From the NCBI RefSeq assembly GCF_964031045.1, contig NZ_OZ034994.1:1-64000 (forward strand): DNA of 64,000 nucleotides, in the 5' to 3' direction. Origin of the DNA: Spiroplasma endosymbiont of Aspidapion aeneum. GTDB lineage: Bacteria > Bacillota_I > Bacilli_A > Mycoplasmatales > Mycoplasmataceae. A program made the translations under genes and the position numbers. The notes under the pieces are model-generated. The model saw only the letters and a list, made by a program, of their open reading frames with translations. It searched no databases and had not been told where the DNA came from. This document shows, in pieces, positions 44,402 through 51,634 of this stretch (its first letter is position 1; each line of letters begins with the position of its first letter).

Positions 44402-44848
44402 ATGGGTAAATTAATCATAGCCCACAGAAAAAGAGCTAGTTTTGATTATGAAATTTTTGATAAATATGAAGCCGGTATAGTTTTATACGGTTCGGAAGTT
44501 AAATCAATTAGGTCTAATTCGGCATCTATAAACGAAGCTTTTGTAATTGTGAAAAATTTAGAATTATTTATTTTAAATATGAATATTGCAACATATAAAT
44601 TTGCAACAAATAAATACTCCGAATTAGATCCAACTAGAACAAGAAAACTTCTACTTCACAAGAATGAAATAAAAAAAATATTTAAGAAAATTAAATTGGA
44701 AAAATTAACACTAATTCCTACGTCCATATATTTTGTTAATGGAAGAGTTAAAATGGAAATAGCACTTGGAAAAGGTAAGAAAAACTATGATAAGCGTGAA
44801 ACAATTAAGAAAAGAGACGTTGAAAGAAGATTACAGAAAATTAAATAA
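44402..44848 (+). CDS. smpB: SsrA-binding protein SmpB
   Basis: SmpB binds tmRNA and brings it to stalled ribosomes. The 148-aa protein has AGIVLYGSEVKSIR, the conserved KLLLHKNEI and a C-terminal GKKNYDKRETIKKRD tail that mimics the anticodon arm. Its tmRNA partner is 2.9 kb downstream at 47780, separated by a P-type ATPase gene. Confidence 0.96.
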   Translation: MGKLIIAHRKRASFDYEIFDKYEAGIVLYGSEVKSIRSNSASINEAFVIVKNLELFILNMNIATYKFATNKYSELDPTRTRKLLLHKNEIKKIFKKIKLEKLTLIPTSIYFVNGRVKMEIALGKGKKNYDKRETIKKRDVERRLQKIK

Positions 44849-44888
44849 TATTTTTGTCACAAAATAACAAATTAAATAATATTATTGA

Positions 44889-44894
44889 TATAAT
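44889..44894 (+). promoter_or_regulatory. -10 element upstream of leader peptide and P-type ATPase
   Basis: TATAAT followed 29 bases later by the leader ORF start, in the gap after smpB. No good -35 is seen. A second TATAAT at 45003-45008 lies after the leader and could give a leaderless transcript. Confidence 0.45.
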
Positions 44895-44922
44895 ATTAGT
44901 ATAGAGAATTGAGGCGATATTT

Positions 44923-44958
44923 ATGATAGAACTCCCCGAATCGAAAGGCATTAAATAA
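44923..44958 (+). CDS. Putative 11-aa leader peptide upstream of Mg2+ P-type ATPase
   Basis: ATG 44923 has an excellent ribosome site (GAGG at 44911-44914, spacing 8) and encodes MIELPESKGIK before TAA. Two bases after the stop codon begins a 9-bp stem, ATTTTTTGA / TCAAAAAAT (44960-44982), then a short T run. A short ORF with an acidic and proline-containing start, followed by a hairpin, before an MgtA-type ATPase recalls the mgtL arrangement of enterics. No homologue is known to me; the role is inferred. Confidence 0.5.
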   Translation: MIELPESKGIK

Positions 44959-44959
44959 T

Positions 44960-44985
44960 ATTTTTTGATTACTTCAAAAAATTTT
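44960..44985 (+). promoter_or_regulatory. Attenuator-like hairpin after the leader ORF
   Basis: Perfect 9-bp stem with loop TTACT (44969-44973), followed by TTTG. It is A+U only, so weak as a terminator, but its position directly at the leader stop codon would let a ribosome on the leader affect its folding. Confidence 0.4.
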
Positions 44986-45154
44986 GTAAATATAAATAAT
45001 AATATAATAAGTATATAGTAAGGAAGAGTGAAATCGATGAAATATAAAAGTTGTAAATTCTGAGAATAATATTTGAAAAAAAGCTAGTAGTCAAACTATT
45101 GAGGAATTTAAATCAGAAAATAATATAAGGTATGTTGGCCTTAATGAAGTACAA

Positions 45155-47683
45155 GTGGAAAAAAATAGGGAGGAATTTGGAGATAATAAACAAACAAAAA
45201 TAAAATTTAACTTTTTTGTAAGTATAATAAAAAATTATTTATCAATATTTAATATTATTTTATTAGTAATATATGCATTTAATGTATACCAATATTTTCA
45301 AAGTCCTGATATTATCGATCTTATTTCAATAATAATAATTTTTACTATGATTATTTTAAGTGGGTCAATAGGTTTTTTTCATGAGTATAATAATTATGTC
45401 ATTACAAAAAGTATATTTGCAAAAAATAAAAGATTTGTTAAAGTAATTCGTAACACAGATATAGATTTTTATGATATATCTGAAGAAAATATAAATCAAA
45501 TATCAAAGCAAACAGAAATAATCGATGCAGATGAATTAGTCATAGGTGATTTCGTTTACATAACAACCGGCGATGTTATCGAAGGGGATTTAAAAATTAT
45601 TTTTGAAAACAATTTTTCCGTAATCCAGCCTTCATTATCAGGGGAGGTTTTTCCAGTAGACAAATCTATTTATAATAATAATGAAAATATGATCGATTAT
45701 GAAAATATATGTTATGCCGGCACAACTGCTGCAACCGGATATGCAATAGCTGTTGTTATAGGGACTGGAAAAAGCACATATCAACTAAAAATAACAAATA
45801 GAATTAAAGATAAGCCTAAGAAGAGGTTATTTGATAAATACCTATTTAAGATAAGTTGTTTTATTGTGTCTTTTATAGCACTGATAACCCCTATTGTTTT
45901 TGGTATTACTAAAATTGAAGGAAACACGTGGGACTATTCTCTATTATATGCTGTATCGCTCGCTGTTGGTCTAACACCTGAAATGCTTCCAATTATTGTT
46001 GCCTTAAATCTTAAAAATGGCTTTAAAATATTAACAAAAAAATATAATTTTAATATTAAAACAATTAGTTCAATTCAAGCGCTAGGAGCAATTGATGTAT
46101 TATGTATGGATAAAACAGGAACAATAACCGAAGGAGAAATTAGCCTTTGAAAATCATGTGATTACTACGGAAATAGAAATGACAATTTAAATGTTTATTC
46201 ATTTATTAATTCTAATTACCAATCCGGATTTAAAAATCATATTGATAACGCCATTATTAAAAAATTAGATATCTATGAACCTAAAGTCAATGAAGTGAAA
46301 ATCATAAAGGAAAAACCTTTTGATTTTAATAGAAAATTACTATCCTTGCTTGTTGAGTATAAGGATAAAAAAATCCAAATTACTAAAGGTGCTTCGGATG
46401 AGATTCTTGGTATAGTTGATAAAATTGAACTTAATGGATCTGTTGAGAAAATTCAAGATAAGCATATCAAAAAAATTGAGGAGGACATAATTAATTTTAA
46501 TAGAAGTGGTTATCGAATTGTATGTGTTGCCACAAAGAGTGATAATAATAATATTGAAGAATCTAATTTAACATTCTTAGGATTTTTAATTTTTTTTGAC
46601 AAACCAAAAAAAGAAACAAAAAAATTTATTCAACAGTTGGGTCAAAGACAAATAGATTATAAAATACTCACTGGAGATAGTGAGGTTATAACTAAGGAAA
46701 TAGCTAAAATGTCAGATATAAAAATTAGGGGTTCAATATCTGGGGTAACTTTGGATAAAATGACAGATGAACAATTTAAGAATGCAGTAATCAATAATAA
46801 TATTTTTTATAAACTAAACCCTCTCCTTAAATCAAAAATACTAACAACACTACAAGAATGTGGGAAAGTTGTCGGATTTATAGGTGATGGAATAAATGAT
46901 GTCGCAGTTTTAAGGTCTTCTGATGTAGGAATATCCTTTAGAGATGCATCTGGCCCAGCACAAAACGCTGCTGATATTGTTATTGGAGGTAATGAGCTTG
47001 TAGATATTGATGAGAGTGTGATTAGAGGTAGGGAGGCATTATGTAATATTGTTAAATATATTAACATTACTATAGCATCAAATTTTGGTAACACAATAAG
47101 TATATTAATAGCAATTTTATGATTAAAGTTTACACCAATGCAACCTATACAAATATTAACACAGAATCTCCTATATGACCTAACACAATTTGCTCTTATA
47201 TATGATAGAGTAGATAGTTCATTCACTAAGGTACCTAGGTCTATAGATCTAAAGCACATTATTAGATTTTCCTTAATAAGTGGCCCCGTTAGTTCTATAT
47301 TTGATATTATTTGTTTTCTTATATTAACATATGTTTATAAATACACATTAAATACACCTAATCAAGACCAAAATATAGTTTTATTTAATTCATCTTGATT
47401 TATTGTTGGATTGTTAACACAAGCTGGTGTTGTGTTTATATTTAGAACAGAGTATAATAATTTATTTAAAACAAAACCTTGCTCCGCTCTCGTTATATCT
47501 AATATTTTTGTATTTGCCTTGGGTTTTATCATACCTTTCACCCCTGGAGTATCAGGATTATTTAGTATGGCACCGCCGTCTTACACATTTATATTTTTTG
47601 CATTAGGAATTATAATTTTTTATATATTATTATCCATGCTGGTAAAGTATATTTATATTAAGGTATTCGGTAGTGTGTGATAA
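45155..47683 (+). CDS. Magnesium-importing-type P-type ATPase (MgtA/MgtB-like), apparent frameshift at 5' end
   Basis: A P-type ATPase with phosphorylation motif CMDKTGTIT (Asp at about residue 319), TGDS, GDGINDVAVLR, and the MgtA-like VGLTPEMLP in helix M4; about ten membrane segments. GTG 45155 is the first usual start codon in the open frame, giving 842 aa, but has no ribosome site. The same frame is open upstream to about 45013. ATG 45037, with GGAAGAG before it, is one base out of frame; dropping one A from AAAA at 45046-45049 would join them and give MKYKVVNSENNIWKK. Four TGA codons, including the last before TAA 47681, are Trp. Confidence 0.88.
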
Positions 47684-47693
47684 TATTTTCAAA

Positions 47694-47718
47694 AAAAATA
47701 TCTTTTAGATATTTTTTT
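47694..47718 (+). terminator. Intrinsic terminator after the P-type ATPase
   Basis: Perfect 10-bp stem AAAAATATCT / AGATATTTTT with a TTT loop and a continuing T run, 10 bases after the stop codon and upstream of the ssrA promoter. Confidence 0.85.
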
Positions 47719-47744
47719 TATATTAAAAGAGTATAATAAATATG

Positions 47745-47773
47745 TTAGCATTTCTTCGTTAGTTTAATATAAT
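47745..47773 (+). promoter_or_regulatory. ssrA promoter
   Basis: TTAGCA (47745-47750) and TATAAT (47768-47773) are separated by 17 bases; the mature 5' end of tmRNA at 47780 lies six bases after the -10. Spacing and position are ideal. Confidence 0.75.
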
Positions 47774-47779
47774 AAAAAT

Positions 47780-48182
47780 GGGGATGTCTTGGATTCGACA
47801 GAATATTGTCTGGGCATATACTGCAGTGGTTTGGTAGACCTTAATACTTCTAGGTTTGAATTAAACGCAAACGAAGAAAATGAAAAATTTGAAATGCCAG
47901 CATTTATGATCAATAACGCATCAGCTGGGGCAGCAATGCTTGCTTAATATCCTTTAGGATATTACACTCAAACTTAATCAAATGAGTCCCTTACTCGTTT
48001 GGTTCCGTAAAGCCTTAAGGGGTGGTTCTGTTATGGTAATTCGCAGTTCCGAGATTTATTACCAAAATTAATGATTTTTTTTCGTTCTCTTTAAAATTCA
48101 TTAATTATCAAAAGAGAAATAAACTGTAGACGTTATGGTTGGAGTATTTTGGACGCGGGTTCGATTCCCGCCATCTCCACCA
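47780..48182 (+). ncRNA. ssrA: Transfer-messenger RNA
   Basis: tmRNA rescues stalled ribosomes and tags the product for proteolysis. The 5' end GGGGATG pairs with CATCTCC before a genomically encoded ACCA at 48179-48182, forming the acceptor stem. A T arm with GGTTCGATTCC is present. The tag frame runs from GCA 47867 to TAA 47945-47947: 26 residues that begin ANEENEKF, contain EMPAF and end AAMLA. Four T-rich bases and a T run follow. The tag's end differs from the LAA of most bacteria and resembles Spiroplasma. Confidence 0.97.
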
Positions 48183-50188: not shown

Positions 50189-51634
50189 ATGGAAAATAAA
50201 AATGAAATATTACAATTAAGTGATAGTTTAAAAATTCTTGTTGATAATTCGGATTTTGACAAGATCAAACAGTTGGCAGCGGATTTTTATGCAATTGATT
50301 TTTCTGAAGCATTATCCTCATTAGATACAAAATATATTATAGTTGTTTTGAGAATTTTAGAAAGTAACAAAAGTTCAATAATATTTTCAGAATTTAATAA
50401 TGAAGTTCAAAAAAATGTAGCTATGACCTTAAATGAGAAATGAATGGCTAAAATACTTGATGCCATGAATAGTGATGATGCAGCAGATATTATGGAAAAT
50501 TTACCACCATATATTGTGAAAAAAATACTGGAAAAATCAAGTCCTGAAACTAAATATCAATTTAGCAAGTTATTGAATTATAAAGATGATACCGCTGGTG
50601 GAATAATGTCTGTTGATTATATAGTTCTCAGGGATAGTTTAAATGTAATAGATGCCTTGGAATTGATAAAGAAAAATTATAAAGACATAGAAAACACTAA
50701 TACAACCGCATATTTTGTTGTTGATAAAAATAATGTACTTTGTGGGCTTGTTCACCTAGGTGAAATATTTTTTGCATCTGATATAAAAAAAATTAGGGAT
50801 ATTATGAATAATAATGTAATTTATGTTAATATTAACGATGACCAGGAAGTAGTTGCAAATAAAATGAAGAAATATGATATTCCATCAATTCCAGTTGTAA
50901 ACAATGAAAATAAATTAATGGGAATTATAATGATTGATGATGTTTTGGATGTTATGTCAGAGGAAACAACGGAAGACATATATAAGCTGGGGGGAATTAA
51001 TTATTTTGGAAAGGATAGTTATTTTTCACTCAGTATATTTAAAATAGTTAAGTCAAGACTGTTATCTATTTTTATGATACTCTTTATATCTACCTTATCT
51101 CAAATACTATTAACTATTTTTATAAACAAGGAATTTAATTCCAATAGTAAAAATTTGGATTATGTTATAACATTATTTATAACGCCATTGATTGTAGTTA
51201 TATCATGTTCATCTGGAGCAATTGCTTCACAAACAACATTGTTAACAGTTAGAAGTATATCCTTAGATCAATTAAAAAGTAATAAATTTTTTGATATTGT
51301 TAGAAAAGAGATTATTATTGGTCTTTTATTTGGAATTATTGTAGCATTATTAAATTTTGTAAGATTAATAGTATTTTATGAAATTTACTATAGTGGTGAT
51401 ATTAACAAAAATTATATCTGGCTATCAATTTCAAGCATATCAATTTCAATAATACTTACAGTATTTATTTCAAATTTTATAGGTTGTATTATTCCGCTAA
51501 CGGCAAAGTATTTAAAAAGGGATGCCGCTGTCTCTTCAATATTTTTATTGGAGACAATTGTAGATCTTATTTCAATTTTAATACTTTATGGCATTTCATA
51601 CATATTTATATATAATATTGGAAACGGATTATAA
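50189..51634 (+). CDS. mgtE: Magnesium transporter MgtE
   Basis: MgtE is a Mg2+-gated channel. The 481-aa protein has an N-terminal superhelical domain (with MNSDDAADIMENLPP), a CBS pair (residues about 145-270) and five C-terminal membrane segments with RDAAVSSIFLLETIVDL. The pore segment reads SSGAIASQT where many homologues have GNAGNQ. The TGA at 50441-50443 (Trp) sits in the N-terminal domain. This is the second Mg2+ transport gene in 6 kb. Confidence 0.92.

Follow-up and report, generated by a model that had tools for sequence, protein, structure and literature searches.

A conserved leader ORF upstream of mgtA in Mycoplasmatales as a putative translational attenuator, and its apparently shortened copy in a Spiroplasma endosymbiont

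Throughout the order Mycoplasmatales, the gene for the Mg2+ importer MgtA is often preceded by a short predicted leader ORF that probably controls the translation of mgtA as an attenuator, in which sensing of the kind known from the enteric MgtL leader would be combined with a geometry of the erm type. Mg2+ would be the signal, as judged from the controlled gene, and the copy found in the window (the whole 64,000-nt stretch of DNA analyzed here) appears to be a simplified or decaying one. The mollicutes examined yielded neither a Rho protein nor an M-box, and we found no account of how their Mg2+ uptake is regulated. If the proposed reading is correct, control of mgtA by a translated leader would occur in two unrelated lineages, and the read-out in the second would differ, being translational. 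The features of the window that bear on this reading are as follows.

44886..44894, + strand: extended -10 promoter box TGATATAAT, 28 nt 5' of the leader ATG
44911..44918, + strand: leader ribosome-binding site GAGGCGAT, matching the anti-SD consensus GAGGTGAT at 7/8 positions
44923..44958, + strand: putative leader ORF MIELPESKGIK, 11 codons (ATG ATA GAA CTC CCC GAA TCG AAA GGC ATT AAA TAA)
44932..44943, + strand: CTC CCC GAA TCG (Leu-Pro-Glu-Ser), an early rare-codon Pro/acidic segment, the proposed ribosome-sensing codons
44938..44971, + strand: weak leader-to-UTR complementarity, GAATCGAAAGGCATTAA with ATAATATTTTTTGATTA (E -8.2), a possible remnant of pairing B described below
44960..44982, + strand: 9-bp A/T-rich hairpin with loop TTACT (44960-44968 with 44974-44982), not seen in relatives
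45020..45025, + strand: ATPase ribosome-binding site AAGGAA, from the sequence
45037..45069, + strand: ATG led by this ribosome-binding site in the wrong frame, MKYKSCKFWE*; the ATPase frame is +1 relative to ATG 45037
45041..47683, + strand: MgtA-type Mg2+ P-type ATPase (TIGR01524; TGA = Trp), frame open from 45011

The preliminary description of this DNA had pointed to the short ORF MIELPESKGIK with a near-ideal ribosome site ahead of the ATPase, and the sequence at 44923-44958 bears it out. In dinucleotide shuffles of the window region 5' of mgtA, an ATG-led ORF with a 7/8 Shine-Dalgarno match arose in only 0.7% of cases. The ribosome sites of leaders in relatives, such as L071 (gaggtgatattATG) and L022 of Mesoplasma seiffertii (gaggtgatattttATG), are nearly the same as that of the window. 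Of 80 leaders, 53 have an exact TATAAT 20-40 nt 5' of their ATG (5.4 in shuffles), and among the leaders with the exact box its distance to the ATG peaks at 26-29 nt, with 28 nt in the window. The 11-codon ORF is thus predicted to be a genuine copy of the leader, for which a chance origin is unlikely, and, as read from these sequences, it is one copy of the conserved mollicute mgtA leader that has been cut to 11 codons.

The conservation of the leader was assessed over 60 genomes of the family that carry the ATPase, whose loci were gathered by an alignment-based search; the group labels g and f used below are those of the search tool, and the relatives compared belong to genera other than that of the window. 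A contig scan with the window ATPase as single query gave no match, and an alignment scan of contigs returned 80 loci, few of them mollicute. Under strict criteria, a leader lies 5' of the primary mgtA in 40 of the 60 family genomes vs. 1.0 expected, while none is found 5' of the 19 paralogous ATPases. In the primary copies of the family, the ORF led by a ribosome-binding site is mostly positioned 107-213 nt before the mgtA start. The window leader itself misses the strict criterion because of the one mismatch in its ribosome site. Leaders also occur in other families (10/19 in f3, 5/13 in g18 of f7 and 2/9 in f5), are absent from all 19 loci of genus g24 and are rare in the class Bacilli outside the order (1/14 loci). 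In an Escherichia genome, the identical scan picks up the genuine MgtL (MEPDPTPLP..). The check proposed in the preliminary description, conservation of the start and ribosome site in relatives, has therefore come out in favor of the leader across mollicute families, in genera other than that of the window; the distance to the promoter and the Pro, Ser and acidic codons near the start are conserved there as well. We found no account of a mollicute mgtA leader in the open literature, to which the search was confined, subscription journals lying outside it.

Within the citri clade, 6 of 8 extra mgtA copies have a strict-criteria leader, while most of the main copies are without one. The main copies at L014, L015, L018, L087-L089, L092, L094, L097 and L100, mostly without a leader of normal length led by a ribosome-binding site, share a long-range inverted repeat (GATTTAGGAATTTT .. 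AAAAGTCCTAAATTT) 5' of mgtA, which is a different element.

Conservation at the codon level, which had also been proposed as a check, is seen in several genera of relatives, g5 excepted. Among single-base codon differences in the leader frame, for which the pairs compared are not independent, 71 are synonymous vs. 44.4 expected, and the other two frames give, with the same non-independence of pairs, 53 vs. 50.8 and 23 vs. 48.3. The excess lies in the N-termini and is strongest in g9 (8 synonymous, 1 not), g12 (6 and 2) and g11b (10 and 5). It is absent from the g5 leaders, so the peptide sequence may matter little in g5. Proline makes up 18.6% of leader codons 2-4 vs. 3%, and acidic residues (Asp/Glu) 23.5% of codons 8-10 vs. 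11%. Many leaders of the MSIPS.. type contain few acidic residues, and a destabilization of ribosomes like that by MgtL is therefore not obvious there.

Comparison of the relatives also establishes two RNA pairings that recur though the sequence changes, with stems ranging from 6 to 18 bp over the loci. In pairing A, the leader ribosome site and start codon pair with the 3' half of the leader (mean z -2.66 vs. shuffles; 18 bp in L026, 16 in L093, 15 in L246 and 14 in L006), and in pairing B, the leader 3' half pairs with the stretch just 5' of the mgtA ribosome site (mean z -2.44 vs. shuffles; 12 bp in L069, 11 each in L079 and L085). When own partners were compared with partners swapped between clades, Z was -12.5 for A and -14.0 for B (0/2000 permutations), and the control pairings (leader with upstream region, leader with ATPase start and ribosome-binding site with UTR) were null. 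The leader halves of A and B overlap or abut in many loci. A third pairing, C, between the stretch just 5' of the mgtA ribosome site and that site, is clear in about ten loci, including L066, L069, L074, L075, L076, L079, L246 and L254, but weak on average (mean z -0.43 over all loci).

Based on these pairings, we propose a switch of four segments: the ribosome site of the leader together with its start codon (segment 1), the 3' half of the ORF (segment 2), the stretch just 5' of the mgtA ribosome site (segment 3) and that site itself (segment 4). By sequence, segment 2 can pair alternately with segments 1 and 3 in the relatives, and in several clades segment 3 has segment 4 as a further possible partner. 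When ribosomes reach the leader end, or when none is present, segment 2 would not hold segment 3, which would then hide the mgtA ribosome site (OFF). If ribosomes instead halt or drop off within the early Pro/Ser/acidic stretch of rare codons, segment 1 would stay occupied and segment 2 be left untraversed, so that segment 2 could pair with segment 3 and mgtA would be translated (ON). In this scheme, the leader would be translated, and early loss or pausing of ribosomes would be the signal. The trigger is most likely low Mg2+, acting through ribosome destabilization as in the enteric MgtL, given that the controlled gene imports Mg2+ and that Pro, Ser and acidic codons come early in the leaders.

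Two negative searches bear on the read-out. No Rho match over the cut-off was obtained in 25 genomes, including that of the window, whereas the control search recovers Rho in 8 known genomes; the read-out by Rho-dependent termination of the enteric MgtL can therefore not apply, and the read-out must differ. The covariance model of the M-box (RF00380) likewise matched neither the window nor any of the other mollicute loci scanned, and with neither Rho nor M-box found, a translational attenuator with erm-like geometry is the best reading.

In erm attenuators such as those of ermC and ermB, the position of the leader ribosome decides between pairings 1:2 and 3:4 on one side and 2:3 on the other. 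The mollicute relatives, though not the window, share this four-segment logic in that segment 2 alternates between segments 1 and 3. Unlike the erm attenuators, the mollicute leader would control a Mg2+ pump instead of a resistance methylase, with no drug ligand implied, the leader ribosome site itself serves as its segment 1, and its 3:4 pairing is weaker.

The enteric MgtL leaders of Salmonella and E. coli resemble the mollicute leaders in having a short ORF with a strong ribosome site 100-200 nt 5' of mgtA, early Pro/acidic codons (in the predicted ORF MIELPESKGIK of the window and in the family leaders) and alternative RNA structures. In enteric bacteria, low Mg2+ causes early ribosome drop-off on MgtL and thereby mgtA induction (PMC11282234), and by analogy the mollicute leader would be expected to be induced at low Mg2+ through early drop-off. 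The two differ in that no sequence homology is seen and no Rho gene was found, which leaves the mollicutes without a Rho-dependent terminator; moreover, segment 2 of the mollicutes is contained in the leader ORF and pairs with the ribosome site of that ORF, and the read-out is most likely translational. The idea of an MgtL-type leader, as put forward in the preliminary description, thus holds for the family, with its conserved ORF and attenuator-like stems, applies only in part to the window, with its truncated leader and near-chance stems, and does not extend to a Rho-type read-out.

The M-box (ykoK) riboswitch is also a Mg2+-responsive leader of Mg2+ transporters, but the mollicute element is a different RNA that would need a translated ORF. 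The covariance model search used for the mollicutes found M-boxes 5' of mgtA in Enterococcus, Trichococcus, Clostridium and Bacillus loci. In Mycobacterium tuberculosis, an M-box is combined with translated uORFs (PMC12810186). This system is likewise a Mg2+-linked leader with uORFs and with anti-SD and anti-anti-SD pairing, but it has the M-box aptamer and Rho-dependent termination, and its regulated gene does not encode a P-type ATPase (PMC12810186). At the mgtA genes L200, L202 and L185 (Enterococcus, Trichococcus and Clostridium, respectively), the M-box is followed by a short acidic ORF led by a ribosome-binding site (MDDSPENKK.., MDEGSSTGIGP.. and MEDGSSKIIDP..). A question raised by these sequences is whether M-box and ORF might be two Mg2+ devices in series.

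In the window, pairings A (z +0.3 to +0.9) and C are at chance level, and pairing B is inconsistent, with z values of -1.9, +0.2 and +1.9 in three definitions. Promoter spacing, ribosome site, start and the Pro-Glu-Ser segment are kept. The window copy seems to have lost or replaced the stems while keeping the leader.

The start of the window mgtA is also unusual. The ATPase passes the Mg2+ P-type ATPase model TIGR01524 (643.9 bits, cut-off 610.75), and its frame is already open at 45011, before GTG 45155, a point missed in the preliminary description. The PF00690 N-domain is detected only if translation starts 5' of GTG 45155, and the orthologues start at an ATG about 35 codons ahead of a conserved GL pair. 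The only ATG led by a ribosome-binding site, at 45037, is 1 nt out of register with the ATPase frame, and its reading frame ends at TAA 45067-45069. Elsewhere the ATPase frame is open, and it contains the DKTGT motif. The frame mismatch could be a sequencing error, a fresh lesion or decay, or recoding; a single-base sequencing error would account for it.

The hairpin directly after the leader, which the preliminary description had put forward as a regulatory element, has a different status. Its 9-bp stem exists, with its first base 1 nt and not 2 nt past the stop codon, and its stability is -5.6 kcal/mol. It is A/T-rich and ordinary for this genome: the 64-kb window contains 15 comparable perfect stems (7.3 in shuffles), and two of the 15 fall within about 110 nt at the leader. 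The stems conserved in relatives are others, and a regulatory role of this hairpin is not borne out. As a terminator it was rejected, since the terminator scan was empty at the leader and hairpin and A/T-rich stems are common in the window. The 156-nt window leader as a whole folds no better than shuffles (z +0.21).

How much of this could have other causes may be judged by weighing the alternatives together. That the ORF and the hairpin both arose by chance in AT-rich DNA is very improbable; such an origin is suggested by the ordinary hairpin and by the fold of the leader, which does not exceed shuffles, and for the hairpin it stands, but for the ORF it is contradicted by the 40 of 60 genomes with a leader, the conserved promoter spacing and the rarity of such ORFs in shuffles. 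A serious possibility, though we would not put it at even odds, is that the window leader is a non-functional relic, which is compatible with the attenuator reading for the family. Lost stems, a truncated leader and the frameshifted ATPase start all point that way, against which have to be set the promoter spacing, ribosome site, start and Pro-Glu-Ser segment that persist, and the open remainder of the ATPase frame with its DKTGT motif, in which a single-base sequencing error would explain the mismatch.

Two further alternatives concern the family as a whole. The regulator might act by structure alone, the ORF just carrying RNA segments and Mg2+, another ligand or temperature acting on the fold, with leader translation incidental. 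The very strong 1:2 and 2:3 stems would fit this, as would the lack of a synonymous excess in g5 and a stem order that could give an H-type pseudoknot where the halves abut without overlap. We nevertheless consider it unlikely, given that nearly all loci have as segment 1 a ribosome site close to consensus plus a start codon, that the frame is kept, that the N-termini of g9, g12 and g11b have a synonymous excess, and that a bias toward C-ending codons at positions 5-7 is unexplained by pairing with either ribosome site. Somewhat less probable still is a different signal, in which case the leader would respond to the charging of Ser or Pro tRNAs, to a drug that targets ribosomes or to translation stress in general, and MgtA would follow because Mg2+ stabilizes ribosomes; the early Pro/Ser enrichment, exemplified by proline at codons 2-4, and the erm-like four-segment layout are in keeping with it, but Mg2+ import is the specific function of the controlled gene and the enteric mgtA uses a similar leader for Mg2+ (PMC11282234).

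The codon bias just mentioned is pronounced. At leader positions 5-7, 66% of four-box codons end in C, as opposed to 5% in the bodies of the ATPases. Of 34 leaders, 24 have a C-ending four-box codon among codons 4-8, compared with 8.9% of the 5-codon stretches in those bodies; CTC CCC are codons 4-5 of the window leader. Among the 29 tRNA genes found in the window genome, Ser UCN, Pro, Leu CUN, Val, Gly and Ala are each served by U34 tRNAs alone, with the anticodons UGA (Ser), UGG (Pro), UAG (Leu), UAC (Val) and UGC (Ala). It is conceivable, if a long shot, that the sensor is the codons and not the peptide alone: C-ending four-box codons (TCC, CTC, CCC, GTC and GCC) at positions 5-7 would be read by U34 tRNAs, U34:C3 decoding would weaken first as Mg2+ falls, and the resulting ribosome pause would flip the switch. 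A Mg2+ sensor of this kind would exploit four-way wobble decoding and could exist only in genomes whose tRNA set is minimal. Two pairing-based roles of these codons were tried and rejected: pairing with the leader's own ribosome site is avoided rather than favored (mean z +0.66), and direct masking of the mgtA ribosome site is, over 34 loci, no better than in shuffles (mean z +0.14). The minimum-free-energy fold of the window leader does show leader codons with the mgtA ribosome site (ACTC:GAGT and CC:GG).

The leader also occurs in Mesoplasma florum L1 (L011), a harmless laboratory species whose genome is 793,224 bp (PMC7745072) and in which promoters have been mapped, so that the putative attenuator is directly testable there, and the minimal cell JCVI-syn3A retains mgtA (PMC6609329). 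Other genes near the window mgtA include those for SmpB and RNase R, located 5' of it. At 44402-48182, mgtA and its leader lie between smpB and the tmRNA gene, and in the g12 relatives L044 and L046 the tmRNA gene directly follows smpB. A second Mg2+ transporter, MgtE (TIGR00400, 272.9 bits), is encoded at 50189-51634, 2.5 kb 3' of mgtA.
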